This document shows positions 255 to 46,802 of a stretch of DNA of 64,000 bases, piece by piece. The stretch lies in contig NC_088311.1 of the NCBI RefSeq assembly GCF_910592395.1, forward strand, positions 18,354,501 through 18,418,500, in the 5' to 3' direction. The notes beneath the pieces are model-generated. The model saw only the letters and a program-made list of their open reading frames with translations. It ran no database searches and was not told where the DNA came from. Each line of letters starts with the position of its first letter. The stretch's first letter is position 1. This DNA comes from Lineus longissimus (Eukaryota; Nemertea; Pilidiophora; Heteronemertea; Lineidae). The position numbers and the translations under genes are program-made.

Positions 255-447
255 CTATTACCTGTGAACCTCCTGTCATATCAAACGGACATGCTTCAGT
301 CACCAAAACCAGCCGTGTATGGGTCAACTGTAACCTATCGTTGTAACCAAGGCTTTGTTCTGGATGGAAAAGAAAGCTCCAGGTGTATTCAAAATGGAAC
401 TGACAATGTTTATGGGAAATGGACTGACCAGACGCCTGTGTGTAAAG
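255..447 (+). pseudogene. CCP exon A1 with a 1-bp frameshift
   Basis: Type-A sushi exon preceded by tttccaag and followed by the donor gtaaagt. It is 193 bp long, whereas all other A exons are 192. The extra base is an A in the run at 305-308 (four A where intact copies have three), after the codons for S-V-T. The phase-1 frame then reaches a stop within about 15 codons, while the expected C-N-Q-G-F, S-R-C and P-V-C-K segments continue in the shifted frame. A real disabling mutation or a homopolymer sequencing error are both possible. Upstream intron homology to the array introns fades near position 215. Confidence 0.75.
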
Positions 448-9805: not shown

Positions 9806-9806
9806 A

Positions 9807-11728: not shown

Positions 11729-11789
11729 ATGAGACAGGTTTTCTATCTGATCACTGTTTGGAATGCTATTTTTTCAAACATCGTAGCAG
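11729..11789 (+). CDS. Signal-peptide exon, gene 2
   Basis: ATG in good context (aacaaaATGa, purine at -3). It encodes MRQVFYLITVWNAIFSNIVA, a typical n-region plus hydrophobic core ending in a small residue, then one base and the donor gtatgt (phase 1). A second intact copy is at 49923-49983; two broken copies are at 14102 and 14975. Conservation of the ATG, the hydrophobic core and the AG|GTATGT donor between the intact copies argues for function. The next in-phase exon for gene 2 is the Gla exon. Confidence 0.65.
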
Positions 11790-14700: not shown

Positions 14701-17700
14701 ATCGTAATCAAAATGGGTATAATCTGTCATTTTTAGAACAACCGACGCTTTGCCTGATGTCATTTACCTACTGTTATCAAAGGTCACTGCCTATGGCCGT
14801 GAAAGAGGCGACAATTTGAACGGCATGTCTCAAACCGTCTATAGACCAAGACTCCTTTGAAGTATACGTGTATATTTATTAATTATTTCATTTTGTTTTT
14901 GCGCCCTTGATCCGTGCAAGTCAATTCTTAAACTCTTGTCGAAACTAAGACACACGAGTTGTGCGAGGAACAAAATGAGACAGTTTCTCCATTTGATTAT
15001 TTTCTGGAGTGTTCTTTTTCTGATATCTTAGCAGGTAGGTAAACTTGAAACATTTGTCGTTCGATTCCGTGCTTACTCGATTTTGTTTCAGGCGAGCAGC
15101 AGTTCTTGCGGAATACGCGATTCTTTGCCTTTAATCACATCACCATGTCCTCCCCGCTGTAGGGAGGTTTCGCAGAGCTAGAGTCCGAAACCCAAACGCG
15201 AACGCCGATCTCTTTGTTCGATCTCCTGATCACGATGCCGAACAAAAGGGTAGGCGATCGCGTTGGCGTTTTGGGGATTTGCGAAAACTCTCTAGTAAAA
15301 ATCCTACCCGAAGTTCGGCACTGTTTCGCCAGCCCTACGACTCGTGAAGTATGAACTACTAACTACAAAGGTCTGTCCTGTCAAATCTGTGCTACAAAGG
15401 GGGGGGGATAGCCCCCCCCCCCCCTTTGTAGGGGGATTTTCAAAACTCCTCCCTATGTTAATTTTATGATGATTTTTTTCGACAGTCTACTTTTTTCTGA
15501 TACACCCTGTATAGTCTACATGAATAGATTCCATCAACACATTGCACAAAAAAGGAGAAATTCAAAATCTGACTGAATTATCACGCTTTTTCCGATGTTG
15601 ACTCCAATTTGAACCGATGTAGATCATTTCCATGTGAAACGATGCACCAGTGAGGTCTGTGACGTCATGGTGCGGATATTGATTTTTCCGACGTCACGGT
15701 GATGGCGCGCGCTTGATTACGAGTCGTAATAGCGAGTTGACGTGAACTCGGATCTCGGCGTGCACTCACATGGCGGAAAGGTATTTCGCGACAGCAATTG
15801 CGCGTACTGAAAATAACGAATAACACGTTTTCTACCATCTAAGAGCTGAAAATATAGAAAAATTATCAAACACGTTCAGAAAAAATAGTTTACTGATGGA
15901 CCAGAAGAAGAACAAACATACCTGCAGTAAAAAAGCCGCCCTTTCCTTTATCAAAGGAGTACCACTATATACACGCGCACTATCACAACTTGGATATACG
16001 TGTATATTTGTATATACACGCATGCTATAATGGTTATGCGCCGTGAAATCATCTTTTACAACTTTCATCAATAATTTACCGGGGTGGATATGTTTCATGT
16101 GATGCCGATTAGCCGCTAAGTTAAGTAGAGTTTACCTGACTTTGGAGAGTGTCAGTCTAGTGGTTTCTAGAATGCTACATTGTATAGAGGTGTACATGTA
16201 GTACATGTACCTGAATGCTGAAAGAAGAGACGGAGTTGAATGATTTATTCATTAGTTCTTGATGTTATTGATAGCTTCAAATATTCACCGAGACGATCGC
16301 GTCCATCTTGAAGACAAAGAAGCAAAGTCGTTCCTCGTTGGACACTCCCGCAGGTACCGGCGGACAGAGAAATTGTTTGTGGGTGATCTAAACGAAGAGT
16401 GTCATGAAGGCTGCACATATGAAGAGTGCAGGGAACATGGGCAAGGGCCCAAGGAAGTGGTAAGTGATCGTAAGTTAGAAAGTACTACAATCAAGACTAA
16501 ATGAAGACAATACTACAGCATCTTAACTAGCACTAGGTTCCAAATTTTAAACAAAATTAAATACATGTAATCATTTTAGTCTCTCAGACAAAATGCTCTG
16601 TAACTCCTTTATCTTTAGGAGTTCAGAGCTGAATGTGTTATCATTTTGTTCGTCTTGGTATAATATTTTTACAATGAATCAATACCATTTAATATCTGAG
16701 TTCAGGAAACCCACGGCCACCCTTTTGAAAAAAAGACTTGAGTTTTTTAAATTTCTTAAGTTCCAAATTCTTAGTCTTTGTGAATTCTTGCTACAATGTA
16801 TTTGTCTTCATAAAATGAGACAACTGGGTAAAGGACAGCGTAAGTAATATACATAATGTGGTAGTCTGCGATTAGGCCTGGTACTATAAGGGAATCACAA
16901 TGATAACAAAACAAGCAAAGCTATTGGTTACTAAGATACAAAGGATGTTGTTATATGGGCGGAGATTAGTCCACACGTGGTGAAGTCAACCGTCCATGAC
17001 ATTACTCCGCGGCAACGAGACAGAAAATGTGCGTCGGGTTCAGCATTTGGATGAAGCGGCATGTAATCTTAACACGTATTTTAATAAATAACTAACTTTA
17101 TTAAGAAAACGTATAATATATAAGAGAATTACAATAATAACTAAACAAGCGAAGCTATTGGTTACTAAGATACAAAGGGTGTTGTCATATGGGCGGAGAT
17201 TAGTCCATATGTGGAGAAGTCAACCGTCCATGACAGGTACACTTCCGTATCGGAACAATTTATGCAAATAGTGTCACGGTACTGCATCTGAGTCACGCTG
17301 TTGCCTGGTGACGGAATATGAAACCCAAGAGCCCAGACATCATGTTTTAGCGCTAAACTTTAATACATGTACTGCATGACTCAGCATCCTGAACCTTAGA
17401 CCAGCATTCGATCAGCACTAGAGTGACTCAACCACTCTCTTGATTACATCATAGGGAGTGGCCCGGAACTGGCCAACAGTGGTTCCACACGGTAGATGCT
17501 AAACACAATCACCTACAGTACCCGCCTCGTTTTGAAATGAACTGTTACACACAACCTCGTTTACCCAGGTGTCATTGCGCGCTCCTATGGTCACTTGAAA
17601 TATACCACTGGTATTATGTTGAGCTAAAACATACATATATTTGATTGGTCAGCAAATAACGTTTGACATGCAAATGATATGTAATAATGTTGTTACACTT

Positions 17701-20700
17701 GGCATATTCATGACATATTGAATCGGCAAAAAGGACGACTCAGGGCGACTTATCAGTCCACATAACCATTTCCCCTGATGCGACCACAAATCAATTGACG
17801 GCATAATAGATCTTCATGGACAAGGATGATATATGAGCTAATGCTAATATAAAAAATTCATTGCCTCTACAAGAAAATGTCGTCATTTAGTCGGGCCATG
17901 CGGGCACTCCGAGGAAAACAGAACCGAAGAAGCACGTGTTACAATACCCAATCGCGCGAGCACTGTGAAGCAATTATTTTAAAATCCCTTTTGATAATTG
18001 ATTTTTATATTCAAGTAAAAGGCTTCTTTATCTGTATACATCCTGAGATAATTGGTCAATTTTACAATTATTTGATCGGCTACAAACGGTTTTTGGTCAT
18101 GTTGAAACAGTGCTGACACGTGGTGCCCGAATAGGCGGGTCATAGGTCAAACTTAGCCTACTACGTCACCCCTAGATTCTGGCGGTGAAGAGCGATATGA
18201 TTGGATATGACGTAGACGAGTATACATGGTCTAGTGGTGCAGCCATTTTGAATGCTAATCAAGTAGACCCCGGATGTAGAGGTCGAGGATTATAAAAATA
18301 AAATTGTTTAGAATAAGGCCCCCGGTTTGCCGCCACTTCAGCGCCACCGGTGGGGCCTAATGGTATTAGGCTAGATCAGCACTCATAAGCAGTAACGTGT
18401 GCGAGATTTCGAAGACTCTATATATTATCATAGTATCGCAAATCTCAAAATTGAAAAAGGGCCATATTCTACGGCAACGCGGAAATTATCAGGACATTTA
18501 AAGATCCTATTTCGTCAAACATCAATGAAAATGGTCACAAATGATTTTGCCATTATAAAGGGTATCAAAAGAAACAAAAATCTCATGTAATCTTTCGAAA
18601 ATTCAAAATCTCATATGTTTGAGATTTTGCGATATCAACAAAACGAAAACTTTTTTTTCGAACTTTCCTCACAAAAAGTCAGAGTATGATTCTGTTCCAT
18701 TTCAAGATTAATAATTGCAGGATTTGAAAGAATCCAATCTTTGTCGTGATGTTTTGATATTTTCATGATATTTTACACGCAATGCCAATTTTTGTAACAA
18801 AGGAAAAAAATGGCATGCAACATTTATTGAATAAAGTAGTTTTGGTAAGAATTGTAGACCTATCCAATAGTTTTAGGTGTACGTAAACTTTCGGGCACGA
18901 ATGTACAGCTGGGAGATGGGCGATTAATTTTTTTTATTTATTTATTCGTGTAAAATACATGTACAATATTTGATATAACATGACAAGACATTGGATTATG
19001 AACAAAATAAAACGTACATGCATTACACTGGTAACCATGTAGGTCGAGACCTATTATATGGCACCAGATAATATGGGTTGTGTCGTCGGGGTGCCGGCGA
19101 CATGCGCACTAAGTGGGCCGACAGTTTGCACAACGGCAGAAAGTGACGAAAGTGCACATGTCGTCGACATCCAAACGATCCAACCTGTCAAAATAATAAA
19201 CATTAAGGGACGATTTAAAATGCATTTTTTTCAAATTATGTAATTGGACCGGGAGGCTGTTCCACAGCTTCGGTGTCCTCACCCAGTATGAGGCACCGAA
19301 CGTCTCCGAGTGGAATCTCGGCTGCGCCAGTCGTAAACCGTCGCCCCTTACAGCCGGGGTTATATAAAAACGTGCATTAAAATCCAGGACATTATAATAA
19401 GAATCGTGCATAAAAACTAGATCCTTGATTTCCCGACGGTACGACAGGGGCAGCAGAGACAACGCTCGCAGACGCTCCACATATGGCATATCAGGGCCTA
19501 AAATGTGACGAGTCACCCTCCGCTGGACACGCTCTAAAGTTTCAAGATCACGTCGCACATGTGTGTCGAATACCACCGTACCATATTCAAGGCGACTACG
19601 CACAAGTGATTTATACAACATGATATTCAAATTAACGTCTGCAGTACGCCCGCATACACGCCTGATCATACCCCACATTCTACTTGCACTGCTTGCAATA
19701 CCATTGACATGAGATGACCATGACAGGTCCGAAGAAAAGACAATACCAAGATCCTTGAATTTATCAACCCGACACAATGCAAAACCATTGATATTGTAAA
19801 AGAAGTGTGTCGGATTTAACTTCCTAGTAACACTAAAGTTTTAGGTGTACGTAAACTTTCGGGCACGAATGTACAGCTGGGAGATGGGCGATTAATACGA
19901 CAGCCTCTATTTTCAGTGACCTACCTGTGACCTGCTGAACTGACCCTGATCAATGATGCAGAATCCAAACACAAATCGCCGTGTGTGCCTATGGCCGAGT
20001 TACGGCGTGCTGTTGGAGCGATTTTTTGTACGATTTCTTTTGTACGATTTATCATTTCAGCTGGACTTCATGAGAGAATACAACTGCAAACAACAAAGAT
20101 TATTACCATGTCCTTATGGTCAAGCGTGTGTGGCGACAAATGGAGACACGTCCAAAATTTCCAAGCTACACGTAAAGTGTTCTGGTAGGTCGCTCACCAC
20201 TCTGCCTATGATCATAGCATAAAACCTCACCACTATGATCATAGCATAAAACCTGCTCTTTCGAGAAGACACAATTTGCATTAATTTAAACAACTTTACT
20301 CCATTACCGAATTTAAATCTAAGCAATCTGATTTTATAGCTTCTTTAAATTATAACATCGAACCTACAGTCTGCTGATATTTTACAGATTGAATCATCTT
20401 ACCACAACCCGTTCTTGAAATAATACTCATAGTGGTAACAACTTCAGGTGGAGACTTCAAATTTTGTCAATATTGGATGACATGATTGAGTCATAGCGAA
20501 TCATAGCGAATCGAAATGAAAAACCCTTTAATAGAAGTTCTTAAAAATCTCAAAAATCATTTACTGCAGGCCCATTTTACTGCTAAACCGCTACAGGATG
20601 CATATTGGTGTTAGCCATTAAACCATTAAAAGGTTTTCAAAAGCGCAAAAACCTTTATTTCTAAAAGTGTTCTCTGGCAAATAGGCCTTCCCATACACTG

Positions 20701-23700
20701 GCAACATGTCGGCACCCTTCGCACAGCCGAGCACGAGGCAAGACCACCATTGATTTTTTAAGCCTTTTAGCAGTTCAATTGTCAATGTTTGACCGCGACG
20801 CATCAAATACTGCGTGTGGTTGTGAATCTGAAATTATGATATGATATTCCGGACAGTCGGGCAAGTAAATGGTGAAAAGTAAACTGGTAGTTGACCATGG
20901 AAATTGTTTAATAATCGACAAATTGGACAGACATTGATATTTCCACTCTTTTCAGCCAACTGGCAGAAAAACCTCAAAATACGCCCCCTATTACCAAATT
21001 AGCAAAATTCGAAATTTTTTCATCAAATAATTTCTTTATATCTGTAGACTTGCCACAGCAAATATTTTTTCAATACCTCCACAAATATGTACTTGAGAGT
21101 TAAAAACATGCACTCGTCTAATTGATAGGCCTGGACCCTCCAACCTAGGAATATTCAATGGTGGTATTGTCTCACACTGCTCAACTGTTCTGTCTGAAGT
21201 CCTATTACCCATCCTGAGCTTCAGGTTTTTGATAATAGCGAGAGCTGGAGCATATGGAAAACCACTGGGTGCCGAGGATGCCTATTACCACGCATGTTCA
21301 GCTTTAATCCCTAGTTTCCAGCGGGAGATGCGTATGTCGCACGATTTCAACAGAAAGGGGCCTCTTAGTCTCAAATCAAACTCCTTTTTTCTTGGGTGAT
21401 TTGCGTTTTTCACACGATTTCCATCGACACGCCATTCCTTGTACGACTATATAGAAATCTATTTTCTGGCCATGGTGTCCTCTCGGTTTCTCAAGAAACG
21501 GATTTTAGTCAGTCAATCACCTAATTATGTTTCATGCATCGTCAATAGGCCCTATTTGATGCTAATACGACCTGGCAAATTTAACTGATCGAACTCAAAA
21601 TAGTTTGGAGTCAGGGTGTCTTGCGTCTGGGCTGCATCTCACACCCATGCCACCGAAGATAAACAGGGTGGTCCAAAAAAATGTGCAATGTTAATTGCCA
21701 TAATGTCTACCAATAAATATTGTATTTCTGCCAGTGGTTGGATATATAGACGATCATATTAACAGTGAAAAATATTCTCGTCAACTCCAATTACCTCATT
21801 TTTTAATAATTATTTAAATGTTCGATTTTCAGAATCTTCATTTTCCCACACTTTTTGACGTTCTCATATTCAGTGTCGATGCACATCACAGTTTGAATTT
21901 GCATGAAAATAAGACAAAAACAATGAGGTTTATGGTATCAGCAAAGTATCATGGGCATGTGCAAGCACCCCTGAGTGATAACATAAATATGAAGTGTGCA
22001 ATTGGATAGAGAAATATATCTGGTTCATTATTGCATCGCCGGAACATGCGAGAAAAGTTAGAGGAAATGGACATTCTAAAAATCAAACACGTTACGAAGA
22101 AACATGTCTTTTAAACATGTGAGGAAAAAAGGTGGACTTAAAAACGATTCACCGTCATAATGTTTAACATCAGTGAGGCACCCTAACCCCGGCAGAAAAA
22201 TCTTAGCAGACTGACAACATTTGTAGAAAAATTACGGCAAATTATAAATACGCACTTTTTTTGGACGACCCTACAAGACCCGAAATCGGAACTAGTGACC
22301 ATGGAGTAATAGGCGTATACAGTTTGAGTAGTTGATGGTATTTGAAACAAAGCAGACCCTTAGCCGGACTTCTTTTTACATTCTGAAATCGTGTCATGTT
22401 GAACTCTGTTTTCAGATATAGTTTGCATGAAACAGCTTCCTCTCGAAAACGGTGAGGTTTCTGTATCGAAATTGACCATCGATGGTACGGCGAAGTACTC
22501 GTGCAAAAAAGGTTATGCTCTAAAAGGAGCATCCACGGCCACGTGCGAAATAAGCGGCGGAAAGGGGAAATGGTCAGCTGATAGACCCCAATGTCAAGGT
22601 AGGTAAAGCTGCCAATAAAATAGAGAGAATAGAGAGGTTCCGATTTGGATCGCAGAACAAGAACGAGAACAAAGTGATGTTTTCTCTAGTAGACGACATC
22701 AGGATGTTTCTAGACATACGCCTACCCAACATTAAAGAAATGCTCTTTCATTGTATGTCGGTGAAGAGGTAACGCGATACCCGTCGTCAATGCGGCATCG
22801 TTCTTGTTCTCATTCTCGGGTCAAAATCTGAACCTCTCTATTTAAACCAAAGGCCAACGTGAAACGAAATCTACATCCTGTCCCCTCCATAAAGGTTATC
22901 AGCTCCACATACACACATAGATTATGATTTTGAGCCATTTAAGAAAATTTGCACACCGTTCATCACCTGATGACATGTAAAATAACCGACTTGGCCGCGT
23001 ATTGAGCAAACCAGTAGAGACTATCATGATCTGTAGACATGAGATAATAGCCTTTTTTCAAATAACCCTATGTGATAGGAAAACTTATCTAATGATACAG
23101 TGTTCCGGGGAGAATCCGAGGTAATTGAAGGTTATTTGTCTATATAAAACAATGCCTCCCGTCACATTACAAGAAGGAAGGACGATGCTTTTTAAAACAA
23201 TTATTTTAAGACCGCTACATCGATGTAAAAGTTCGAAATGTCCAAGGGTAGAGTGTCCGCGGAACAGAGGATTCTATTATGCACTTTATTCTCTGAGACA
23301 TCGTTTCCACAGAACTACATGTATATACCATTATCTGAATATAGGACCGGACACTTTTTACCGATTGAACACTTCCGACTACTACACCGGCCCTAAACGC
23401 AACGACATAGAATAACATAATTCCCGGTTTACGTTTGTCGCTTGTGCCCAGGATCTTAACCTCTCTATTAACATGACTGAGCCTAATATTTAGCAAGTAT
23501 AATATCGTTGTGTGTTGATGATTTTTTCATTTCCGGTGTCAGTGAAATACGTGTCAACTTTCACACTTTCTTTTCACAGGTGTAATCTTTGCCAAAGCAA
23601 ATGTCGTAAATCTAATTAGGTGGATCAATTAAGGTCAACAAAATCTCGTCCAAATAAACGAATCTCGAGTACTTTGTCAATAAACTATCACCTTGTAGAC

Positions 23701-35700: not shown

Positions 35701-38700
35701 GTGTATGGGTCAACTGTAACCTATCATTGTAACGAAGGCTTTGTTCTCGATGGGAAAGGAAGCTCCAAGTGTAGTCAAAATGGAACTGACAATGTGTATG
35801 GGAAATGGACTGACCAAACGCCTGTGTGTAAAGGTAAAGTTCCTCCAGAGAGAAAGCTTTCTCATTTCCTTTCTACATTTCCTCCATTTTCGGCCATGAT
35901 CATTATCATTATCGATACAATCCCGTACTTTGATTCTTTTTCCAGCCATCAGTTGCGACACACCATTATTATTTAATGGACAAGTAATAGCGGGTGGTCA
36001 AAGTACCCATGGCACGACAGTGATCTTTAGATGCGACGAAGCCTTCATTCTCGTAGGAAAGACAAATTCTACGTGTGTTCATGAAGATCCAAACAGCGCC
36101 AAGGGAAAGTGGTCAGAGCCAACGCCTGTTTGCAAAGGTAAGTCGAAAGTCTACCGCACACGATTGGTCAATTGCCATCCCATGCACCCATAATAAACAT
36201 TTAATTTCTTTGTGGTTTGAAGGAATTTTGAGATGGTCCTTAATGTTGTGTTGTATTCTTCTTTTCTCTTCTAGCTATTACCTGTGAACCCCCTGTCATA
36301 TCAAACGGATATGTATCAGTCACCAAAGCAGCTGTGTATGGGTCAACTGTAACCTATCATTGTAACCAAGGCTTTGTTCTGGATGGGAAAGGGAGCTCCA
36401 AGTGTAGTCAAAATGGAACTGACAATGTTTATGGGAAATGGACTGACCAGACGCCTGTGTGTAAAGGTAAAATTCCTCCAGAGAGAAAGCTTTCCTCATT
36501 TGCTTTCTACATTTACCCCATGTTTGGCCTTGATCATTATCATTATCGATACAATCTCGTACTTTGATTGCTTTTCCAGCCATAAGTTGCAACACACAAT
36601 TATTACTGAATGGACAAGTAATAGCGGGTGATCATAGTACCCATGGCACGACAGTGAGCTTTAGATGCGACGAAGGCTTCATTCTCGTAGGAAAGACAAA
36701 TTCTACGTGTGTTCATGAAGATCCAAACAGCGCCAAGGGAAAGTGGTCAGAGCCAACGCCTGTTTGCAAAGGTAAGTCCAATGGCTAACGAACACGATTG
36801 GTCAATTGCCATCCCATGCACCTATAATAAACATTTAATTTGTTATTGGTTTGAAGGAATTTTGAGATGGTCCTTAATGTTGTGTTGTATTCTTCTTTTC
36901 TCTTCTAGCTATTACCTGTGAACCCCCTGTCATATCAAACGGATATGTATCAGTCACCAAAGCAGCCGTGTATGGGTCAACTGTAACCTATCATTGTAAC
37001 GAAGGCTTTGTTCTCGATGGGAAAGGAAGCTCCAAGTGTAGTCAAAATGGAACTGACAATGTGTATGGGAAATGGACTGACCAAACGCCTGTGTGTAAAG
37101 GTAAAGTTCCTCCAGAGAGAAAGCTTTCTCATTTCCTTTCTACATTTCCTCCATTTTCGGCCATGATCATTATCATTATCGATACAATCCCGTACTTTGA
37201 TTCTTTTTCCAGCCATCAGTTGCGACACACCATTATTATTTAATGGACAAGTAATAGCGGGTGGTCAAAGTACCCATGGCACGACAGTGATCTTTAGATG
37301 CGACGAAGCCTTCATTCTCGTAGGAAAGACAAATTCTACGTGTGTTCATGAAGATCCAAACAGCGCCAAGGGAAAGTGGTCAGAGCCAACGCCTGTTTGC
37401 AAAGGTAAGTCGAAAGTCTACCGCACACGATTGGTCAATTGCCATCCCATGCACCCATAATAAACATTTAATTTCTTTGTGGTTTGAAGGAATTTTGAGA
37501 TGGTCCTTAATGTTGTGTTGTATTCTTCTTTTCTCTTCTAGCTATTACCTGTGAACCCCCTGTCATATCAAACGGATATGTATCAGTCACCAAAGCAGCT
37601 GTGTATGGGTCAACTGTAACCTATCATTGTAACCAAGGCTTTGTTCTCGATGGGAAAGGGAGCTCCAAGTGTAGTCAAAATGGAACTGACAATGTTTATG
37701 GGAAATGGACTGACCAGACGCCTGTGTGTAAAGGTAAAGTTCCTCCAGAGAGAAAGCTTTCCTCATTTGCTTTCTACATTTCCCCCATGTTTGGCCTTGA
37801 TCATTATCATTATCGATACAATCTCGTACTTTGATTGCTTTTCCAGCCATAAGTTGCAACACACAATTGTTACTGAATGGACAAGTAATAGCGGGTGATC
37901 ATAGTACCCATGGCACGACAGTGAGCTTTAGATGCGACGAAGGCTTCATTCTCGTAGGAAAGACAAATTCTACGTGTGTTCATGAAGATCCAAACAGCGA
38001 CAAGGGAAAGTGGTCAGAGCCAACGCCTGTTTGCAAAGGTAAGTCCAATGGCTAACGAACACGATTGGTCAATTGCCATCCCATGCACCTATAATAAACA
38101 TTTAATTTGTTTTTGGTTTGAAGGAATTTTGTGATGGTCCTTAATGTTGTGTTGTATTCTTCATTTCTCTTCTAGCTATTACCTGTGAACCTCCTGTCAT
38201 ATCAAACGGATATGTATCAGTCACCAAAGCAGCCATGTATGGGTCAACTGTAACCTATCATTGTAACGAAGGCTTTGTTCTCGATGGGAAAGGAAGCTCC
38301 AAGTGTATTCAAAATGGAACTGACAATGTGTATGGGAAATGGACTGACCAAACGCCTGTGTGTAAAGGTAAAGTTCCTCCAGAGAGAAAGCTTTCTCATT
38401 TCCTTTCTACATTTCCCCCATTTTCGGCCATGATCATTATCATTATCGATATAATCTCGTACTTTGATTCTTTTTCCAGCCATCAGTTGCGACACACCAT
38501 TATTACTGAATGGACAAGTAATAGCAGGTGGTCAAAGTACCCATGGCACGACAGTGAGCTTTAGATGCGACGAAGGCTTCATTCTCGTAGGAAAGACAAA
38601 TTCTACGTGTGTTCATGAAGATCCAAACAGCGCCAAGGGAAAGTGGTCAGAGCCAACGCCTGTTTGCAAAGGTAAGTCCAATGGCTAACGAACACGATTG

Positions 38701-41700
38701 GTCAATTGCCATCCCATGCACCTATAATAAACATTTAATTTGTTTTTGGTTTGAAGGAATTTTGAGATGGTCCTTAATGTTGTGTTGTATTCTTCATTTC
38801 TCTTCTAGCAATTACCTGTGAACCCCCTGTCATATCAAACGGATATGTATCAGTCACCAAAGCAGCCATGTATGGGTCAACTGTAACCTATCATTGTAAC
38901 CAAGGCTTTGTTCTCGATGGGAAAGGAAGCTCCAAGTGTAGTCAAAATGGAACTGACAATGTGTATGGGAAATGGACTGACCAAACGCCTGTGTGTAAAG
39001 GTAAAGTTCCTCCAGAGAGAAAGCTTTCTCATTTCCTTTCTACATTTCCCCCATTTTCGGCCATGATCATTATCATTATCGATACAATCTCGTACTTTGA
39101 TTCATTTCCCAGCCATAAGTTGCAACACACCATTATTATTTAATGGACAAGTAATAGCGGGTGGTCAAAGTACCCATGGCACGACAGTGAGCTTTAGATG
39201 CGACGAAGGCTTCATTCTCGTAGGAAAGACAAATTCTACGTGTGTTCATGAAGATCCAAACAGCGCCAAGGGAAAGTGGTCAGAGCCAACGCCTGTTTGC
39301 AGGGGTAAGTCCAATGGCTACCGCACACGATTGGCCAATTGCCATCCCATGCACCCATAATAAACATTTAATTTCTTTGTGGTTTGAAGGAATTTTGAGA
39401 TGGTCCTTAATGTTGTGTTGTATTCTTCTTTTCTCTTCTAGCTATTACTTGTGAACCCCCTGTCATATCAAACGGATATGTATCAGTCACCAAAGCAGCC
39501 GTGTATGGGTCAACTGTAACCTATCATTGTAACCAAGGCTTTGTTCTCGATGGGAAAGGAAGCTCCAAGTGTAGTCAAAATGGAACTGACAATGTGTATG
39601 GGAAATGGACTGACCAAACGCCTGTGTGTAAAGGTAAAGTTCCTCCAGAGAGAAAGCTTTCTCATTTCCTTTCTACATTTCCCCCATTTTCGGCCATGAT
39701 CATTATCATTATCGATACAATCTCGTACTTTGATTCTTTTTCCAGCCATCAGTTGCGACACACCATTATTACTGAATGGACAAGTAATAGCGGGTGGTCA
39801 AAGTACCCATGGCACGACAGTGAGCTTTAGATGCGACGAAGGCTTCATTCTCGTAGGAAAGACAAATTCTACGTGTGTTCATGAAGATCCAAACAACGCC
39901 AAGGGAAAGTGGTCAGAGCCAACGCCTGTTTGCAAGGGTAAGTCCAATGGCTACCGCAAACGATTGGTCAATTGCCATCCCATGCACCTATAATAAACAT
40001 TTGATTTGTTTGTGGTTTGAAGGAATTTTGAGATGGTCCTTAATGTTGTGTTGTATTCTTCTTTTCTTTTCTAGCTATTACCTGTGAACCTCCTGTCATA
40101 TCAAACGGATATGTATCAGTCACCAAAGCAGCGGTGTTTGGGTCAACTGTAACCTATCATTGTAACCAAGGCTTTGTTCTCGATGGGAAAGGAAGCTCCA
40201 AGTGTAGTCAAAATGGAACTGACAATGTTTATGGAAAATGGACTGACCAGACGCCTGTGTGTAAAGGTAAAGTTCCTCCAGAGAGAAAGCTTTCCTCATT
40301 TCCTTTCTACATTTCCCCCATGTTTGGCCTTGATCATTATCATTATCGATACAATCTCGTACTTTGATTGCTTTTCCAGCCATAAGTTGCAACACACAAT
40401 TGTTACTGAATGGACAAGTAATAGCGGGTGATCAAAGTACGCATGGCACGACAGTGATCTTTAGATGTGACGAAGGCTTCATTCTCGAAGGAAATACGAA
40501 TTCTACGTGTGTTCATGAAGATCCAAACAGCGCCAAGGGAAAGTGGTCAAAGCCAACGCCTGTTTGCAAGGGTAAGTCCAATGGCTACCGCACACGATTG
40601 GTCAATTGCCATCCCATGCACCCATAATAAACATTTAAATTGTTTGTGGTTTGAAGGAATTTTGAGATGGTCCTTAATGTTGTGCTGTATTCTTCTTTTT
40701 TCTTCTAGCTATTACCTGTGAACCTCCTGTCATATCAAACGGATATGTATCAGTCAACAAAGCAGCCGTGTATGGGTCAACTGTAACCTATCATTGTAAC
40801 CAAGGCTTTGTTCTCGATGGGAAAGGGAGCTCCAAGTGTAGTCAAAATGGAACTGACAATGTGTATGGGAAATGGACTGACCAGACGCCTGTGTGTAAAG
40901 GTAAAGTTCCTCCAGAGAGAAAGCTTTCTCATTTCCTTTCTATATTTCCCCCATTTTTGGCTTTGATCATTATCATTATCGATACAATCCCGTACTTTGA
41001 TTCATTTCCCAGCCATAAGTTGCAACACACCATTATTACTGAATGGGCAAGTAATAGCGGGTGGTCAAAGTACCCATGGCACGACAGTGAGCTTTAGATG
41101 CGACGAAGGCTTCATTCTCGTAGGAAAGACAAATTCTACGTGTGTTCATAAAGATCCAAACAGCGCCAAGGGAAAGTGGTCAGAGCCAACGCCTGTTTGC
41201 AAGGGTAAGTCCAATGGCTACCGCACACGATTGGTCAATTGCCATCCCATGCGCCTATAATAAACATTTAATTTGTTTGTGGTTTGAAGGAATTTTGAGA
41301 TGGTCCTTAATGTTGTGTTGTATTCTTCTTTTCTCTTCTAGCTATCACCTGTGAACCTCCTGTCATATCAAACGGATATGTATCAGTCACCAAAGCAGCC
41401 GTGTATGGGTCAACTGTAACCTATCATTGTAACCAAGGCTTTGTTCTCGATGGGAAAGGAAGCTCCAAGTGTAGTCAAAATGGAACTGACAATGTGTATG
41501 GGAAATGGACTGACCAAACGCCTGTGTGTAAAGGTAAAGTTCCTCCAGAGAGAAAACTTTCTCAATTCCTTTCTACATTTCCCCCATTTTCGGCCATGAT
41601 CATTATCATTATCGATACAATCTCGTACTTTGATTCTTTTTCCAGCCATCAGTTGCGACACACCATTATTACTGAATGGACAAGTAATAGCGGGTGGTCA

Positions 41701-44700
41701 AAGTACCCATGGCACGACAGTGATCTTTAGATGCGACGAAGGCTTCATTCTCGTAGGAAAGACAAATTCTACGTGTGTTCATGAAGATCCAAACAGCGCC
41801 AAGGGAAAGTGGTCAGAGCCAACGCCTGTTTGCAAGAGTAAGTCCAATGGCTAACGCACACGATTGGTCAATTTCCTTCCCATGCACCCATAATAAACAT
41901 TTAATTTATTTGCGGTTTGAAGGAATTTTGAGATGGTCCTTAATGTTGTGTTGTATTCTTCTTTTCTTTTCTAGCTATTACCTGTGAACCTCCTGTTATA
42001 TCAAACGGATATGTATCAGTCATCAAACCAGCCGTGTATGGGTCAACTGTAACCTATTATTGTAACCAAGGCTTTGTTCTGGATGGGAAAGGAAGCTCCA
42101 AGTGTAGTCAAAATGGAACTGACAATGTGTATGGGAAATGGACTGACCAGTCGCCTGTGTGTAAAGGTAAAGTTCTTCCAGAGAGAAAACTTTCCTAATT
42201 TCCTTTCTACATTTCCCCCATGTTTGGCCTTGATCATTATCTTTATCGATACAATCCCGTACTTTGAATCATTTTCCAGCCATACGTTGCGACACACCTA
42301 TCTTACTAAATGGACCAGTAACAGCGAGTGAGCTCAGTACCCATGGCACCACAGTGAGGTTTAGATGCTATGAAGGCTTCATTCTCGAAGGAAAGACAAA
42401 TTCTACGTGTGTTCACGAAGATCCAAACAGCGCGAAGGGAAAGTGGTCAGAGCCTGCGCCTGTTTGCAAAGGTAAAACCAATGATTATTGTACACGATCA
42501 GCAGGTTTTCGAGGGCAGTTGAAGTTCTGGTAGCATTTACTTGCGTCTCCCTATGGAAGTGGTGTTATCTGCAAAATAGATGTTCATGTTTTAAATGTTA
42601 ATTTTTTACAGCAACAACATGTGAGCCGCTAGAAACTAGTGCGCACATTCGCTGCAAGATGAGCAAGCGGATGGGGACCAACATGAAACAGTTGACGCTT
42701 AATAGTTCTTGTGTGACTTAAATGAGATCGAAACACAATGTTATTAAATTCATTCAGCTCAGTTTTTCGTAGGCAATAAGGAAACGGTCATGGTCACATC
42801 TTTTTGTGCGACCAAGCGACATATTCTCTCATACAATGTCCGCGATTAAGAAAGCGTTTGACCCTTAAAGGCTCTGATTGTGGGCTGCGGACAGGACGTC
42901 GAAAAATACCAAAGGCCTTGGGGGTCGGGGACGTAAATGTGTTTATGGACCCACATGTGAGTATGGACCCAGCACATTGCCCTCACCAAAGAAATATACT
43001 TGGAGCACCTACCCACGATCTATAATTCCTATTAAACATTCGCTTCTATTCTACTCTCAAGGAATTACCTGTGACCAACCCGTTCTACAGAATGGTAAAG
43101 CATCCACTGGTTCCCTACAATATAATTCAACAGTAACATACAGCTGCGAGGATAACTATTCTCTTACTGGGAAGGCAACGTCCACTTGCGTCCAGGAGGA
43201 TAAGACTAGCATCAAGGGTGTGTGGGCAGATCCAATACCGATTTGCACAGGTGAGAACCTTTTGGCAGGTTCCGATATAAGTTTTCTTCGTCTCCGAAGT
43301 CGTGATTTGTTGGTGTATTTAACATGTCTTCTGTTGGTTATCAGAAATAAGCAAGGCGCAGCACAGTAAATAGAAGCTTAAGCGCGATCTTAATTGGGGT
43401 GTAGAGCATTTCTACGTGTTTACACGCGTCAGTAGCTCTGTCCAAATCATATTCAGTGCAGCATTTACTTATTAGGAATATATCAAATTTAATTTCAAAT
43501 TTTAATTTTGAACGAACTAAGTTGACCTCAATCTGCAAGACTTTCTGAAGCACGGTAATACTAGTGTAATCACATTTTCCATTACAAGTCTTGTGCTTTA
43601 ATAATCACAATCGGGACAGCTCGCGGTCATTCACAGAATATGGCAGAGTTCAGTAAAACTTAAGTCGAATATTAGTAAAAGAGCGACAACTTCCATTGGT
43701 TTTGCCCTATACGTACATGCTTATGCCTTCTTTGATCTAATCCTTACAAAATGCGATTTGATTGACCAAAAAATCCAAGGTCAACTCAATTTGATTTGAT
43801 TCACAGAAATTAGATTGGAGTCACCTTCGTCGACATTGAATAACGTGCATGGAGACGTGGGAGGACGCACAAATACGCGTGATGAATCAGGTAAGTTGGG
43901 ATCGTCAAAAAAAATTAAGAATGAGTAATTAAAGACTTCACTGAGCAATTGAACGGAAACTATTGCGTATTATATACAATATTACTGGCAAGAATGATAA
44001 TCTCACAGATGCATCACTCTATATAACCCTGTCACTTGTTACATCATCAGTAACTTGTGCTTGCCATTCTCAAGTGCTGACCCAGATGAGGTAAAATGCG
44101 ACTTTCAAGTTCCTTATACATTGTGCGATTTGAAGGTTTCCGCATCGGTCGAATATGAAGTATTGCAAAATGAGGAACAACTAGGTTTTTCATTGTGTGT
44201 TCCTTTCACAATTCCCGAGCGTGAAAATAGAGAATATTTCTGCTAACTCGGTCATGACCACATTTGCCCTTGCTGCGTGCATGTATACGGTGACTATTTC
44301 TAAACCTCTCTATTAAATTTGTTTACATGAGTTTTTTTTACACATAAATAATTCAAAACCTCTCTCTTGGTGTCTTCTTTGTTATATCTATTTTCAGTAT
44401 CAGCAATGAACATCGGAATTGGTATTGGCTGCGCGACAGTTGTTCTCGTCTTGGTAATCATTGGTATTATTTTGGCAATTAAAAACAAAAGGTACGTTAT
44501 TCCCATTTTCCAAATTATACCAGCTGGAGGTATACAATGCATGCAGTACTGACACGATAGATTCGGAGAGAGCCAACCGGATTATTATGGTTTTTACATG
44601 TCGGTGCCAAGTTCAGCTTGACTGGAGTCTGAGGTTTTCCATTCTATCTGAACTTCCCTCAAAAATCCCTCAAATCGTTTCTCAATCAGCCATGTCTTTA

Positions 44701-46802
44701 GCGAGTGCTTAAACGAAATGATACTGTCTGCCATCCTTATATGGGTCGGCAGCTGGTTCCAAACCAAAGAAATGGACCACTCGCCAAAAAGGTTCTGTCC
44801 CAAATGAAGTCTTCGTGCGCTTTGCTTGCAACTTGAAGCAAACGAAAGCGTTTGACCTTGAATGACGAACAGATTCGGCGAGGGGAAGCTGTTGGAAACC
44901 ATGCCGACCAATGAACACACCTATTAGCAATAGATAGCAAAACTTTGAAAACCAAACGAGACATATCTGGCAGCCGGTGGAGTTACCGGATGACTAGCGT
45001 AATATGATCGATCGTACTTGTGCGTTCTTCTCTCAAATCTCGCAGCCCAAATTTTGAATACGCAGGATAGGTTCGATACTCCACTCCTGCTGACACCCAA
45101 AACAATGCCAAATGCCTTTCGTTCAACTCATACCGGTTTCAATCTCGCTTCCAGGATGGCGAAGATGTAAGTGCTCGTGCGATCACACCCTACAACAAAC
45201 CTGGAGGCGGGAAATGCCCGGTCGAGTTTTAAAGAAAGTCAAATGCAAACAATAAATGACGTTTCCTTGACATTTTTATTGCATGTTATGTTGGCTGGGG
45301 ATATTAGGCAAACCGCTTGCCGAACTAGCATCATTTTTGTTCTGTTGGGAGAGCCGCTTGCCAAACAGCACTGAAAATCAACCCAGTTTGGCCAAACATT
45401 ACAAAATTCTTCCCTGTTTGGCGAGCTGGAGACTTCACAACATAGCCAATCAGAGCAGTGAACAGATATCATATTGGAAATAATATGCGCATAATTTACA
45501 ATCGCGGTCTTCTCGCTCTCGCTCTAGATTCAATTTTTAATATTTAAAATAAGTCCTTCTGTAAAATTGTCCACAAGAGTTCATAAAGAATTAAAATGTG
45601 ATTAACTGATAAGTGTAGTAAATACATTGTAAGGTCCTTCGCTATACATCCAGTAGTGTTGTTTACCGCGTTGCCATGAATGATAACACGGATATGATAA
45701 TGAGCTCCTGGCAGGCTAATGTAGTATGAATGAGTTCGGCTCTCCATCTTGGTCAAAAAAGTCGCTGTATGATATGGAAAGCCGGGTTTGCCGAATAATC
45801 AATTCCTGTTATGTTTCGACCCTCAGCTCAGACAAGGAAAGGGTATCTTACCTCACTTTAGATTATATAATAATAATAATAAAAATAATAGGTATTGGAT
45901 CAGGATTGTACAAGGGTGAAAGAACAATTTAGTTGGTGTGTACTGCTCATCACTTCCGGTATTATATGGGGAGTTAAGCTGTTAGAAAATGAAAGAGTGC
46001 CGATCAGGGAGATCTGATCATATCAGGGCAGTGGCAAGAAGCCACCAATGAAAAAGTGCAAAATGTGATAAGAGTGTAAAAGTCTATTATGAAGTTTGCC
46101 TGCTTTAAGTTCGGCCTTCAGCCCTAATGACTTGTTTCGATGAGAATCCCAGGTTATTTAAGACGTCTTTCATAAAACGTGAGGTCAAATCTCAATGTCG
46201 TACTTCCATTTTGTCAAATATTCCTTTGAAGTGGACCACGTATCTTGCAGTTTTTCCAATAATAAAACAAATATGGCAATTTTAATTTTTGCGAATCAAG
46301 GTCATTCGCAAAATTTGACAGTTTTCAGTATTCATTTGATCAGAAAATTTGTAGTCCGGTTTCATCGTCTGCCATCTATCGGAGCCGGTTTGCTGAACTT
46401 CTTTATCCAGCGTCAACAGCACATTATGCTACCTCCACATTGGCGATTAACGCGATGTTTTGCAACAAGAGGCTCGATTTCCTCAGACATTGGTCTAAAG
46501 CCAGATATTCAAATATATCGGTCCTGGAATGAAACCACACAGTGCCGGCGGGCAGGGCCTGAATCGTGGTGTTAAACGATAAGATAGTTCTTTTTTGTCA
46601 AACAATCCATACATTTTGTTTGTCTTGTCTGATATTTTCCAGCCGAGAAAGCCCACCACATGAAACACTCGAAGAAGAGCCCCCTGCCAAATCCAACGTG
46701 AAGGTCTTCCAGAATCCACTTTACAAAATGGAGGAATGGAACGAAGGACAAAACGAAACAAGGGGCAGTTCTGATGAGACGTTCCGCCTAGATGTTGTTT
46801 GA
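11729..46802 (+). CDS. Gene 2: transmembrane Gla-domain protein with a giant CCP array
   Basis: Gene model from splice signals and phase. Signal peptide 11729-11789 (phase 1 out), propeptide+Gla 16275-16459 (1 in, 0 out), aromatic stack/Cys loop 20061-20184 (0 in, 1 out), CCP 22416-22598, 56 A/B CCP exons 24870-42471, CCP C 43062-43250, stalk 43807-43890, TM 44398-44491, tail 46643-46802. Summed length is 11,832 bp, divisible by three, giving 3,943 residues if all are used. The Gla module would be vitamin-K-dependent gamma-carboxylated and bind Ca2+ and phospholipid; CCPs form an extended rod; the tail carries NPLY. Vertebrate transmembrane Gla proteins (PRRG family) lack CCPs, and known CCP receptors lack Gla. 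The weakest links are signal exon to Gla (4.5-kb intron) and exon 22416 to the array, across transposon-rich introns. Confidence 0.55.
11843..12072 (+). other. Conserved open frame of unknown role downstream of the signal exon
   Basis: Starts after gtttgtttctag in phase 2, reading S-L-K-S-A-N-S-D-R-K-R then WDVWSHT, SACPEFSC, CICKPRIS; six cysteines and an RKR site. The copy at 50037-50270 keeps the frame with a 3-bp in-frame insertion. Phase does not match the phase-1 signal exon, and in phase 1 this copy stops after 11 codons, so I do not include it in gene 2. It may be an alternative first-exon product or fortuitous. Confidence 0.25.
12171..13255. other. Intron of gene 2, no exon recognised
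   Basis: Homology to the other duplicated copy continues (12300-12590 matches about 50820-51105) and then ends; this is the right boundary of the large paralogous segment. The rest is AT-rich with no supported coding exon. Confidence 0.5.
13256..13560 (-). repeat. Fragment of the GTCCGTC/DR3 repeat superfamily
   Basis: Reverse complement matches about 60790-61025, including gtaggtcaaatggcg-, catgagatattgacaaaa- and gaccttcaaaagtag-type strings. It contains a perfect DR3 nuclear-receptor motif on the minus strand at 13378-13392. Confidence 0.6.
13561..14170 (+). pseudogene. Third copy of the signal-exon region, broken
   Basis: Homologous to 8220-8310 plus 11246-11800 and to 48900-49990. It contains an uninterrupted cacctTTAAgga, the empty site for the piggyBac-like insertion. 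The signal exon starts at ATG 14102 but reaches TGA at 14138-14140 and also has a frameshift before the donor gtaagt (14164). A poly-G tract (13944-13957) replaces part of the upstream sequence. Confidence 0.65.
14461..14483. repeat. Poly-G tract
   Basis: An uninterrupted run of G (about 23), followed by tgtgcgaggg. Simple sequence; length is prone to assembly error. Confidence 0.9.
14930..15070 (+). pseudogene. Fourth, broken copy of the signal-peptide exon
   Basis: ATG at 14975-14977 in the same gaacaaaATGagacag context. It encodes MRQFLHLIIFWSVLFLIS, still signal-like, then a TAG at 15029-15031, because the exon is one base shorter (60 vs 61) than the intact copies. The donor gtaggt at 15035 is kept. 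This is the signal-like exon closest to the Gla exon; a one-base assembly error here would make it the more natural first exon. Confidence 0.6.
15392..15431. repeat. G-run/C-run perfect hairpin
   Basis: CTACAAA followed by nine G, a short spacer, then thirteen C and TTTGTAG: an inverted repeat with GC-homopolymer stems. It is also a potential G-quadruplex-forming tract. Confidence 0.85.
15526..15660. repeat. Dispersed repeat shared with 63487-63625
   Basis: Shares tctgactgaattatcacgct and ttccgatgttga- strings, then tttccatgtg and aacgatgcac, with 63487-63625 in the same orientation. The flanks differ. Probably a transposon fragment; family not recognised. Confidence 0.6.
16275..16459 (+). 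CDS. Propeptide + Gla-domain exon
   Basis: 185-bp exon, acceptor attgatag, donor gtaagt, phase 1 in and 0 out, identical to the phases of the Gla exon in vertebrate vitamin-K-dependent clotting factors. Residues 1-26 resemble a gamma-carboxylation propeptide (VHLEDKEAKSFLVGHSRR) and end in the furin-type site R-Y-R-R. The mature part TEKLFVGDLNEECHEG, CTYEECREHG aligns with the Gla core (E-x-x-x-G-x-L-x-x-E-C-x-E-x-C-x-Y-E-E). It holds the disulfide cysteines and at least seven Glu candidates. Fewer Glu residues than vertebrate Gla domains and an extra Cys (EEC) are unusual. Confidence 0.8.
16886..17236. repeat. Direct repeat pair of about 120 bp
   Basis: 16886-17000 and 17116-17236 share agctattggttactaagata, tgggcggagattagtcca and gaagtcaaccgtccatgac, with about 10 percent differences by eye. 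Spacing is 230 bp. It lies in the Gla-to-aromatic-stack intron; no coding potential. Confidence 0.7.
17240..18868. other. Intron of gene 2, no exon recognised
   Basis: AT-rich. A short palindrome-bearing element around 18300-18375 (taaggccccc ... tggggccta) recurs at 24455-24530. No other structure found. Confidence 0.5.
18869..19896 (-). mobile_element. 5'-truncated LINE with a perfect 60-bp target-site duplication
   Basis: Identical 60-bp direct repeats at 18869-18928 and 19837-19896 bracket a minus-strand insert. The T-rich run after the left repeat (18927-18950) is the A-rich 3' tail on the minus strand. The ORF is open from the right repeat (19836) to a stop at 19109-19111. It encodes the C-terminal part of a non-LTR reverse transcriptase: FKDLGIVFSSDLSWSSHV, LYKSLVRSRLEYGTVVFD, LERVQRRVTRHI, LWNSLP and FKSSLNVYYF. 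The intact frame and perfect duplication indicate a young insertion; the family (Jockey/CR1-like) is uncertain. Confidence 0.85.
20061..20184 (+). CDS. Aromatic-stack / Cys-loop exon following Gla
   Basis: 124-bp exon after ttatcatttcag with donor gtaggt, phase 0 in and 1 out, which is what is needed after the Gla exon and before a phase-1 CCP. It begins LDFMREYNC, which aligns with the helical aromatic stack following Gla domains (e.g. M-E-F-W-K-Q-Y in clotting factors) with F and Y kept and W replaced by M. The rest (LLPCPYGQACVATN ... LHVKCS) adds three cysteines, resembling the short disulfide loop after the stack. The other frames lack this fit. Confidence 0.6.
20735..21173. mobile_element. 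MITE-like element (439 bp), partner at 49328-49767
   Basis: Ends are inverted: gaggcaagaccaccattga at left and tcaatggtggtattgtctc at right. The whole element is found in reverse orientation at 49328-49767, where it is absent from the paralogous locus (about 11571). No coding capacity. Target-site duplication unclear. Confidence 0.7.
21174..22415. other. Intron of gene 2, no exon recognised
   Basis: AT-rich, unremarkable. No splice-bounded domain or repeat found. Confidence 0.5.
22416..22598 (+). CDS. Divergent CCP exon at the start of the gene 2 CCP region
   Basis: 183-bp phase 1-1 exon between gttttcag and gtaggt. It encodes DIVCMKQLPLENGEVSV, YSCKKGYALKG, ATCEISGG, GKW and PQCQ: all four CCP cysteines and the Trp, about 61 residues. 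It is not closely related to the A, B or C types and lies 2.1 kb before the array. Its phase fits both the preceding aromatic-stack exon and the array. Confidence 0.8.
22599..24704. other. Intron of gene 2 with repeats, no exon recognised
   Basis: Two modest open frames (23125-23415 plus; 23739-24152 minus) show no recognisable domain, splice context or paralogue, so I do not call genes. A short palindromic repeat at 24455-24530 is shared with 18300-18375. Confidence 0.45.
24705..24732 (+). pseudogene. Truncated B-type CCP exon at the array edge
   Basis: The last 28 bp of a B exon (W-S-E-P-T-P-V-C-K plus donor gtgagt) and its downstream intron are present, but unrelated sequence lies immediately upstream. 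No acceptor is available, so it cannot be spliced in as a domain. It marks the left breakpoint of the amplified array. Confidence 0.8.
24870..27899 (+). CDS. Gene 2 CCP array, modules 1-5
   Basis: A/B exon pairs: 24870-25061/25174-25365, 25503-25694/25807-25998, 26136-26327/26440-26631, 26769-26960/27075-27266, 27404-27595/27708-27899. Every exon is 192 bp, phase 1-1 and open, each coding one CCP. These 5'-edge modules are the most varied: module 1 has GKRSSKC and NAYG; module 2 begins VITC and has SVTEAA, NIYGKWTNQS; module 3 has AALYG; module 4 B reads NTQLLLNGQVIAGDQS; module 5 has TDIVYG, VRKTNS and DPHSAK. NGT in A and NST in B are N-glycosylation sequons. Confidence 0.85.
28037..29167 (+). 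CDS. Gene 2 CCP array, modules 6-7
   Basis: Exon pairs 28037-28228/28342-28533 and 28671-28862/28976-29167. Module 6 A has SVNKAA, TDKVYGKWTEQT; its B starts IRCNTQ. Module 7 is the first with VYGSNVTYHC in A (a new N-V-T sequon) and HEDSKSAKG in B, the signature of type-3 modules in the following higher-order repeat. Confidence 0.85.
29305..31068 (+). CDS. Gene 2 CCP array, modules 8-10 (higher-order repeat copy 1)
   Basis: Exon pairs 29305-29496/29609-29800 (type 1: LLFNGQ, VIFRCDEAF), 29938-30129/30243-30434 (type 2: QLLLNGQVIAGDHS), 30572-30763/30877-31068 (type 3: VYGSNVTYHC, DSKSAKG). The three-module block repeats with a 1,901-bp period. This copy differs from the next two at several sites, e.g. 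donor gtaacg at 29497 instead of gtaaag. Confidence 0.88.
31206..32969 (+). CDS. Gene 2 CCP array, modules 11-13 (higher-order repeat copy 2)
   Basis: Exon pairs 31206-31397/31510-31701, 31839-32030/32144-32335, 32473-32664/32778-32969, types 1-2-3. Type-1 A exons now read HCNEGF instead of HCNQGF. By eye only two bases distinguish this 1,901-bp block from the next (near 32052 and 32930), introns included. Confidence 0.88.
33107..34870 (+). CDS. Gene 2 CCP array, modules 14-16 (higher-order repeat copy 3)
   Basis: Exon pairs 33107-33298/33411-33602, 33740-33931/34045-34236, 34374-34565/34679-34870, types 1-2-3. Near-identical to modules 11-13, implying very recent unequal exchange or an assembly duplicate. 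Confidence 0.88.
35008..36771 (+). CDS. Gene 2 CCP array, modules 17-19
   Basis: Exon pairs 35008-35199/35313-35504, 35642-35833/35946-36137, 36275-36466/36580-36771. Module 17 is a chimera: its A exon starts like type 1 (HCNEGF) while its intron and B exon are type 3 (DSKSAKG), as expected from a crossover within the module. Its B donor is gtgggt instead of gtaagt. Modules 18 and 19 are types 1 and 2. Confidence 0.87.
36909..38038 (+). CDS. Gene 2 CCP array, modules 20-21
   Basis: Exon pairs 36909-37100/37213-37404 (type 1) and 37542-37733/37847-38038 (type 2 variant, with NSDKG in B). With modules 18-19 this forms a two-module repeat of about 1,267 bp, a second higher-order period in the same array. 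Confidence 0.87.
38176..39937 (+). CDS. Gene 2 CCP array, modules 22-24
   Basis: Exon pairs 38176-38367/38480-38671, 38809-39000/39113-39304, 39442-39633/39746-39937. Variants: AAMYG in modules 22 and 23, KCIQNGT in 22, PVCRG end in 23 B, PNNAKG in 24 B. All exons are intact, with phase 1-1 borders. Confidence 0.87.
40075..41837 (+). CDS. Gene 2 CCP array, modules 25-27
   Basis: Exon pairs 40075-40266/40380-40571, 40709-40900/41013-41204, 41342-41533/41646-41837. Variants: AVFGST in 25 A, ILEGNTNST and GKWSKPT in 25 B, SVNKAA in 26 A, HKDPNS in 26 B, and PVCKS at the end of 27 B (AAG A before gtaagt). Divergence rises again toward the 3' edge of the array. Confidence 0.87.
41975..42471 (+). 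CDS. Gene 2 CCP array, module 28 (last)
   Basis: Exon pair 41975-42166/42280-42471. It is the most divergent module of the array: SVIKPAVYGSTVTYYC and SPVCK in A; IRCDTPILLNGPVTASELS, VRFRCYEGFILEG and EPAPVCK in B. Its position and the SVIK variant make it the counterpart of gene 1's last A/B module (1517-2013). Confidence 0.87.
42612..42721 (+). CDS. Possible alternative terminal exon, gene 2
   Basis: Paralogue of 2151-2260: acceptor ttttttacag, phase-1 frame ATTCEPLETSAHIRC, stop TAA at 42719-42721, same 110-bp coding length. Three substitutions are visible, two altering residues (V to E, L to M). Use would give a secreted, TM-less form of the CCP protein. Confidence 0.4.
43062..43250 (+). 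CDS. CCP exon C, gene 2
   Basis: 189 bp, phase 1-1, between ctctcaag and gtgaga. It is the same divergent CCP as gene 1's exon at 2596, with Q-N-G for Q-H-G and EDKT for ENKT (loss of one sequon). It is the membrane-proximal CCP. Confidence 0.8.
43807..43890 (+). CDS. Stalk/linker exon, gene 2
   Basis: 84-bp phase 1-1 exon (acceptor gattcacag, donor gtaagt). Two codons differ in residue from gene 1 (G to R and Y to N); one further difference is silent. No cysteine. It connects CCP C to the TM exon in phase. Confidence 0.6.
44051..44246 (+). CDS. Conserved Cys-containing ORF, gene 2 copy
   Basis: Same 196-bp length and stop as 3545-3740. Of eleven changed codons by eye, ten alter the residue and one is silent, while all five cysteines are kept. 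Phase 2 at the acceptor does not join to the preceding stalk exon, so its use is unproven. Confidence 0.3.
44398..44491 (+). CDS. Transmembrane exon, gene 2
   Basis: 94 bp, phase 1 in, phase 2 out, donor gtacgt. Same hydrophobic segment (CATVVLVLVIIGIILAI) and KNKR stop-transfer as gene 1, with no nucleotide difference seen in the exon. Confidence 0.85.
44594..45110 (-). mobile_element. Decayed LINE RT fragment, gene 2 intron copy
   Basis: Paralogue of 4069-4580, carried along by the duplication. Minus-strand pieces LVWNQLPTHIRMAD and FKHSLKTWL identify the C-terminus of a non-LTR reverse transcriptase. Frameshifted and inactive. Confidence 0.7.
46643..46802 (+). CDS. Cytoplasmic tail exon with NPLY, gene 2
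   Basis: 160 bp, phase 2, stop TGA at 46800-46802. It encodes SRESPPHETLEEEPPAK, VFQNPLYKMEEW and an acidic, Ser-rich end. Compared with gene 1, KSKER became KSNVK and NIEEW became KMEEW, while NPLY and its surroundings are unchanged. AATAAA at 47299-47304 is a possible poly(A) signal, but it lies in sequence not shared with gene 1. Confidence 0.8.

Follow-up and report, generated by a model that had tools for sequence, protein, structure and literature searches.

In vertebrates, the Gla module sits on a soluble bridge (Gas6 or protein S) that then meets a separate receptor, and Gla genes show a 1-0-1 phase pattern around the Gla and aromatic stack exons. To our knowledge, vitamin-K-dependent membrane-binding modules have been described mostly from chordates. 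We know of no CCPs in the membrane-bound Gla proteins PRRG1-4 (TMG). Long CCP arrays occur in CR1 and CR2, which have a transmembrane segment (TM) and a short tail. The FxNPxY sequence is the coated-pit uptake signal of LDL-receptor relatives and a docking site for PTB domains.

The locus described here lies in a window of 64,000 nucleotides (the whole stretch of DNA analysed) and very probably holds a single gene for a transmembrane Gla-CCP protein, as predicted from the DNA. The combination of a Gla module, a sushi (CCP) array, a TM and an uptake-type tail appears to be a new domain architecture built from known modules. It is found in the Nemertea, an animal group in which we did not expect a Gla module. 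The propeptide, the putative Gla at the tip and the single TM are shared with PRRG1-4, one of which (TMG2) is the best match in the PDB. (L/P)PXY WW-binding motifs are reported in PRRG4 (PMC3764795); the tail of the Gla-CCP protein has FQNPLY instead and no PPXY. Factors IX and X have the propeptide, Gla core and aromatic stack in common with it, and the match enters the first EGF1 cysteines. However, the Gla-CCP protein has no protease, only half an EGF, a Cys loop one residue shorter and a shorter mature N-terminus, and carries the CCP array and TM instead. The long array is shared with CR1 and CR2, but here it comprises 58 CCPs in alternating A/B exon pairs, and no Gla is flagged among the CR1/CR2 matches listed. 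SVEP1, the name given to two Lineus predictions discussed below, also has many CCPs. This name does not fit the entries. Pfam finds no VWA, pentraxin or EGF match in the N-terminal 312 and C-terminal 240 of the 3,943 residues, except for a cEGF match below cutoff; the residues between these scanned ends are called CCP by exon pattern. The FxNPxY motif is shared with LDL receptor family tails, whereas none of the pieces scanned with Pfam contains an LDLR ectodomain module.

Gene model and related predictions

Rebuilt from the sequence, the gene has 64 exons (11729-46802, plus strand) that splice into a frame of 11,832 bp encoding 3,943 amino acids. Its features, with the evidence for each, are as follows:

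11729..11789, plus strand: exon 1, signal peptide MRQVFYLITVWNAIFSNIVA, phase-1 donor (gene model; tandem-unit copy)
16275..16459, plus strand: exon 2, propeptide (RVHLEDKEAKSFLVG..RYRR) and Gla core (TEKLFVGDLNEECHEGCTYEECREHGQGPKEV), phase 1 in, 0 out (Pfam, PDB and profile matches)
20061..20184, plus strand: exon 3, aromatic stack (LDFMREY) and four-cysteine piece, phase 0 in, 1 out (PDB alignment)
22416..22598, plus strand: CCP 1 (exon pattern scan, Pfam)
24870..42471, plus strand: CCPs 2-57, 28 A/B exon pairs in units of 633-635 bp, all phase 1-1 (exon pattern scan)
43062..43250, plus strand: CCP 58, the last (exon pattern scan)
43807..43890, plus strand: stalk exon (gene model, paralogue comparison)
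44398..44491, plus strand: transmembrane exon (gene model; 94 of 94 bases the same in the upstream paralogue)
46643..46802, plus strand: cytoplasmic tail with FQNPLY and C-terminal LDVV, stop codon (gene model, tail motif scan)

The frame is a multiple of three, and its sole stop is terminal. All 63 introns are GT-AG. A TM-type hydrophobic stretch (19-residue) occurs only once in the 3,943 residues, at 3859-3892, and is preceded by 62 N-glycosylation sequons. The order given by the sequence-only reading (signal, propeptide, Gla, stack, 58 CCPs, stalk, TM and NPLY tail, with matching phases, in 11,832 bp) was thus recovered base for base. Its signal exon is less secure: a tandem unit, described below, does place it at the 5' end of the gene copy, but the exon is one of four related copies and receives no support from the Lineus prediction.

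The predicted joining of these exons into one mRNA is supported in part by two Lineus (ribbon worm) gene predictions, P0001 and P0002, which are the top matches in a search of 5.8 billion proteins and each span part of the junctions. P0001 (813 aa) holds the propeptide-Gla, stack, CCP1 and more CCPs within one predicted protein, although the CCP that follows CCP1 is of a different type from the A type in the window. P0002 (692 aa) consists of CCPs, the last CCP (93.5% identical to CCP 58), stalk, TM and a YQNPLY tail; its last CCP is preceded by one additional CCP. Both are computer predictions, and neither supports the junction of the signal and Gla exons or the central part of the array. The first 22 residues of P0001 were rejected as a true start, because they correspond to an EGF-like exon at 51.7 kb read out of frame, and its end seems by eye to be a misread A exon; the ends of this prediction are therefore unreliable. 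An AlphaFold2 model of P0001 alone is uninformative (mean pLDDT 30.9). A short Gla gene and a separate CCP-TM gene could have been read as one transcription unit, and introns of 2.2-4.5 kb do separate the 5' exons. However, in P0001 the Gla, stack and CCP1 are predicted together with further CCPs in a single protein, which matches the exons of the window one by one at 79% (propeptide-Gla), 78% (stack) and 92% (CCP1), and we consider two separate genes very unlikely.

CR1 and CR2 are among the best matches after Lineus, and no protein joining a Gla to a TM was found among the matches of the 5.8-billion-protein search. The Gla family PF00594 is flagged in none of the 64 matches of that search, nor in the 120 listed among 239 long-protein matches. 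This flag misses divergent Gla modules, since P0001, which bears one, is also unflagged. With that limit, the earlier statement that no protein is known to combine a Gla domain with a large CCP array and a signalling-type tail agrees with the matches listed. The Gla-CCP1 part of the 312-aa query gave 50 candidates, none at E<=10. The long-protein search returned 239 matches at E<=1e-5, and the 120 listed do not exceed 31% identity, so that these include no close relative or annotation of the gene in that size range. Judged by titles and the starts of abstracts, none of the papers listed, among them papers on PRRG proteins, describes a Gla-plus-CCP protein.

The Gla module

The Pfam Gla model matches the propeptide-to-stack piece at E=0.0018 and the 312-aa N-terminal piece at E=0.011. 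Both fall short of the curated cutoff (27 bits, against 18.9 for the propeptide-to-stack piece). The values for Lineus are E=0.018 (15.7 bits) for the counterpart piece and E=0.36 for the whole of P0001. At E<=10 the PDB yields 13 matching sequences, every one of them a Gla protein; TMG2/PRRG2 ranks first (E=0.0022), with the propeptide included in the alignment. With a profile of three Gla proteins, the Gla exon (16275) ranks first among the 1,702 ORFs of the window, with E=1.8e-5, whereas the second-ranked ORF has 1.1. The profile gives 27.9 bits for the window sequence, 22.6 for Lineus, 8.1 for the reversed sequence and 14.8 for the best shuffle (5,000 made, 4,983 scored). A chance match was rejected on the ORF ranking and the shuffle control. 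Comparison of the two nemertean with three vertebrate sequences by hhalign gives a probability of 91.7%, and the phases around the Gla and stack exons are 1-0-1, equal to the vertebrate Gla-gene pattern. Judged by its sequence, the Gla module appears to be real but divergent.

The putative propeptide resembles those recognized by the carboxylase; V.L...EA.SFL..H is common to it and TMG2, and a Phe of TMG2 is His in the Gla-CCP protein. In the alignments to PDB matches, both members of the Cys pair of the Gla core are present. In factor IX numbering, Glu is retained at positions 7, 17, 21, 26, 27 and 30. It is absent at 8, 15, 33, 36 and 40, and there is a deletion of one of 20/21. Cleavage at RYRR would start the mature protein five residues later than in factor IX, and in the alignment part of the membrane-contact loop is gone. 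Exon 3 contains the aromatic stack and four cysteines, a cysteine piece that is read as half an EGF because the factor IX match extends into EGF1.

Identity to P0001 is 24/32 in the Gla core, 26/29 in the propeptide, 32/41 in the stack exon and 56/61 in CCP1, so that conservation is lowest in the Gla core among these four N-terminal segments. With the loop partly lost, Gla positions missing and the core least conserved, phosphatidylserine binding is possible at most. The earlier assignment of the module to the Gla proteins is supported as homology, but the proposed docking to Ca2+ and phosphatidylserine is weakened by the later mature start and the missing Gla positions. These losses, together with the low conservation of the core and a Pfam score below cutoff, could also mean that the Gla is vestigial. 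The protein would then work mainly through its CCPs, as a CR1-like array for binding complement fragments or microbes, with the Gla tip contributing little. The place of CR1 and CR2 among the best matches is consistent with this, and an A/B array with three-unit blocks resembles what we take to be the long homologous repeats of CR1. However, the propeptide is kept and EEC.EGCT.EE.RE is present in the core of both the window gene and Lineus, neither of which a dead module needs. We give a vestigial Gla some weight, while thinking it unlikely.

The CCP array, the tail and a possible role

The whole plus strand of the window was scanned for AG...GT phase-1 exons with a CCP pattern, which yielded 67 rows: 58 distinct exons of the Gla-CCP gene, 2 nested alternative ends, 6 exons of the upstream paralogue and 1 kringle-like exon (57885). 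Pfam Sushi matches the N-terminal 312 residues at E=3.8e-24 and the C-terminal 240 at E=3e-15; NCBIfam shows no match in two protein pieces, and Rfam none within the window at gathering scores. CCPs 2-57 come from two exon types with 28 copies each: type A reads ITCEPP.., and type B usually reads ISCDTP.. or ISCNTQ... In comparisons of every pair among the 28, pN is 0.015 and pS 0.097 for A exons, against 0.035 and 0.066 for B exons, while array introns diverge by 5-6% among copies. As pN is below pS in both types, the repeats have been maintained at the protein level, with type A under the stricter constraint, and the CCP exons show purifying selection. Units 11, 14, 18 and 20 are identical across 633 bp, and units 8-10, 11-13 and 14-16 are near-identical blocks of six CCPs each. 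The array has thus grown recently, and the number 58 is a property of the assembly. The earlier count of 58 CCPs is right in that assembly, but given the identical units the number may vary. Just before the first A exon, 24705-24760 matches 1986-2041 of the upstream paralogue (84%) and looks like the remnant end of a B-type CCP exon, which suggests that the array once reached further 5'.

All three tails compared contain NPLY, as FQNPLY in the gene and its upstream paralogue and YQNPLY in P0002, and all fit [FY]xNPxY. A motif scan of the 56-residue tail of the gene finds no YxxPhi or PPxY; by eye it has no LPXY, and NPLY is its sole P-x-Y. Given this fit and the absence of YxxPhi and PPxY, uptake is preferred over signalling. 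The tail had been described as signalling-type, a label that suits it less well than that of an FxNPxY uptake motif. The C-terminal LDVV or LDFV is kept across the tails compared and might bind PDZ domains.

The reading that we favour is a nemertean type I membrane protein with a Gla tip, a CCP rod and an uptake tail, to which as a whole we assign a probability of about 50%. Its most likely role is that of a capture-and-uptake receptor, an uptake mechanism that we put forward tentatively. In this mechanism, the signal peptide would direct synthesis and the propeptide would recruit gamma-glutamyl carboxylase, after which a furin-type enzyme could cleave at RYRR. The Gla would be displayed at the tip of a rod of 58 glycosylatable CCPs, which from CCP size we take to be ~200 nm long if extended. 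The Ca2+-dependent tip and the rod together may catch a ligand well away from the cell surface. Recruitment of PTB or clathrin adaptors by FxNPxY may then lead to endocytosis or engulfment. A bolder and rather doubtful extension is a protostome single-chain engulfment receptor, in which a phospholipid-reading Gla is linked by the CCP rod to a TM and FxNPxY tail on the same chain. It would belong to a nemertean tandem family with rod length tuned by copying of exon-pair blocks.

Alternatively, the protein could be a glycosylated structural or adhesive rod of a glycocalyx, epithelium or mucus, with a tail for turnover only. The 62 sequons would suit such a rod, and the homogenization of the array through recent duplication is consistent with selection on length. 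A scaffold, however, needs neither a propeptide and Gla tip nor an FxNPxY tail, and we regard this explanation as quite unlikely. If the Gla-CCP protein is real in mRNA, it would place a propeptide-Gla with vertebrate exon phases in a spiralian, which bears on the age of vitamin-K-dependent membrane-binding modules. The coupling of a Gla to a complement-type rod and an uptake tail would then be a test case for Gla recognition outside clotting. Variation in receptor length has a natural system in the A/B blocks, which were copied recently.

Tandem copies and neighbouring genes

An upstream paralogue (gene 1) and a candidate alternative exon of the Gla-CCP gene (gene 2) are also found in the window:

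255..6296, plus strand: gene 1, with its 5' half outside the window (exon scan, paralogue alignment)
561-2013, plus strand: gene 1, five CCP exons
2596-2784, plus strand: gene 1, last CCP
3341-3424, plus strand: gene 1, stalk
3892-3985, plus strand: gene 1, TM
6137-6296, plus strand: gene 1, tail
42612..42721, plus strand: gene 2, candidate alternative last exon (ATTCEPL...SSCVT*), phase-1 acceptor, in-frame stop (gene 1 copy at 2151-2260)

The last four coding exons of the two genes align without gaps and differ at 15 of 527 positions, against 325 of 4,361 noncoding positions (Fisher p=2.5e-5). Two rows stand outside this count: the alternative exon, with 5 differences in 109 positions, and the last array exon, with 26 in 192 bases, as copies in the array do not correspond one-to-one. 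Within these four exons dN (0.028, 11 changes) is about equal to dS (0.026, 3 changes), so that constraint on the tail at the protein level lacks support between the paralogues. The first visible CCP exon of gene 1 (255-447) contains a one-base frame break; as the other CCP exons are phase-symmetric, skipping it would preserve the frame. This break, and two decayed copies of the signal exon at 14102 and 14975, could suggest that the locus is a decaying tandem copy. In the Gla-CCP gene, however, none of the 64 exons is interrupted by a stop or frame break, every intron is GT-AG, and the CCP exons have pN below pS. Decay of this gene is therefore extremely improbable.

Collinear matches in six pieces join 1822-12579 to 42280-51105, and the tandem unit ends with intergenic DNA, a promoter region and a signal exon, which supports the choice of 11729-11789 as exon 1. 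A third unit stops near 51.1 kb and includes an intact signal exon (49923-49983) that differs at 1 of 61 bases. A different gene follows from this point (49923-58112, plus strand), in which the near-identical signal exon precedes EGF-like (Pfam E=0.16, cysteine pattern), F5/8-type (galactose-binding; E=9.8e-7) and kringle (E=3.2e-13) exons. It was rejected as part of the Gla-CCP gene, since it is located past the stop at 46802 and follows a signal exon of its own. From the sequence arrangement, it is an apparent case of promoter and signal-exon capture through tandem duplication. A second EGF-like ORF is present at 63246-63398.

The alternative exon has no Pfam match, and its five differences between paralogues are too few to judge. 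AATAAA/ATTAAA-type signals occur shortly past both copies (42743 and 2282). The exon could give a secreted form, or could be a decayed CCP.

Repeats and a possible retroelement piece were also observed. In intron 2, a 243-codon ORF on the minus strand (19109-19840) resembles by eye a piece of a retroelement reverse transcriptase. An element of ~440 bp occurs twice, in opposite orientations and at 94% identity: once in intron 3 (20734-21172) and once within the downstream gene's copy of the promoter (49328-49769). Tandem arrays with units of ~302 bp are located at 9800-10902, 54093-54963 and 55235-56349, and 9999-10716 matches 56131-55412 in reverse orientation (62%).
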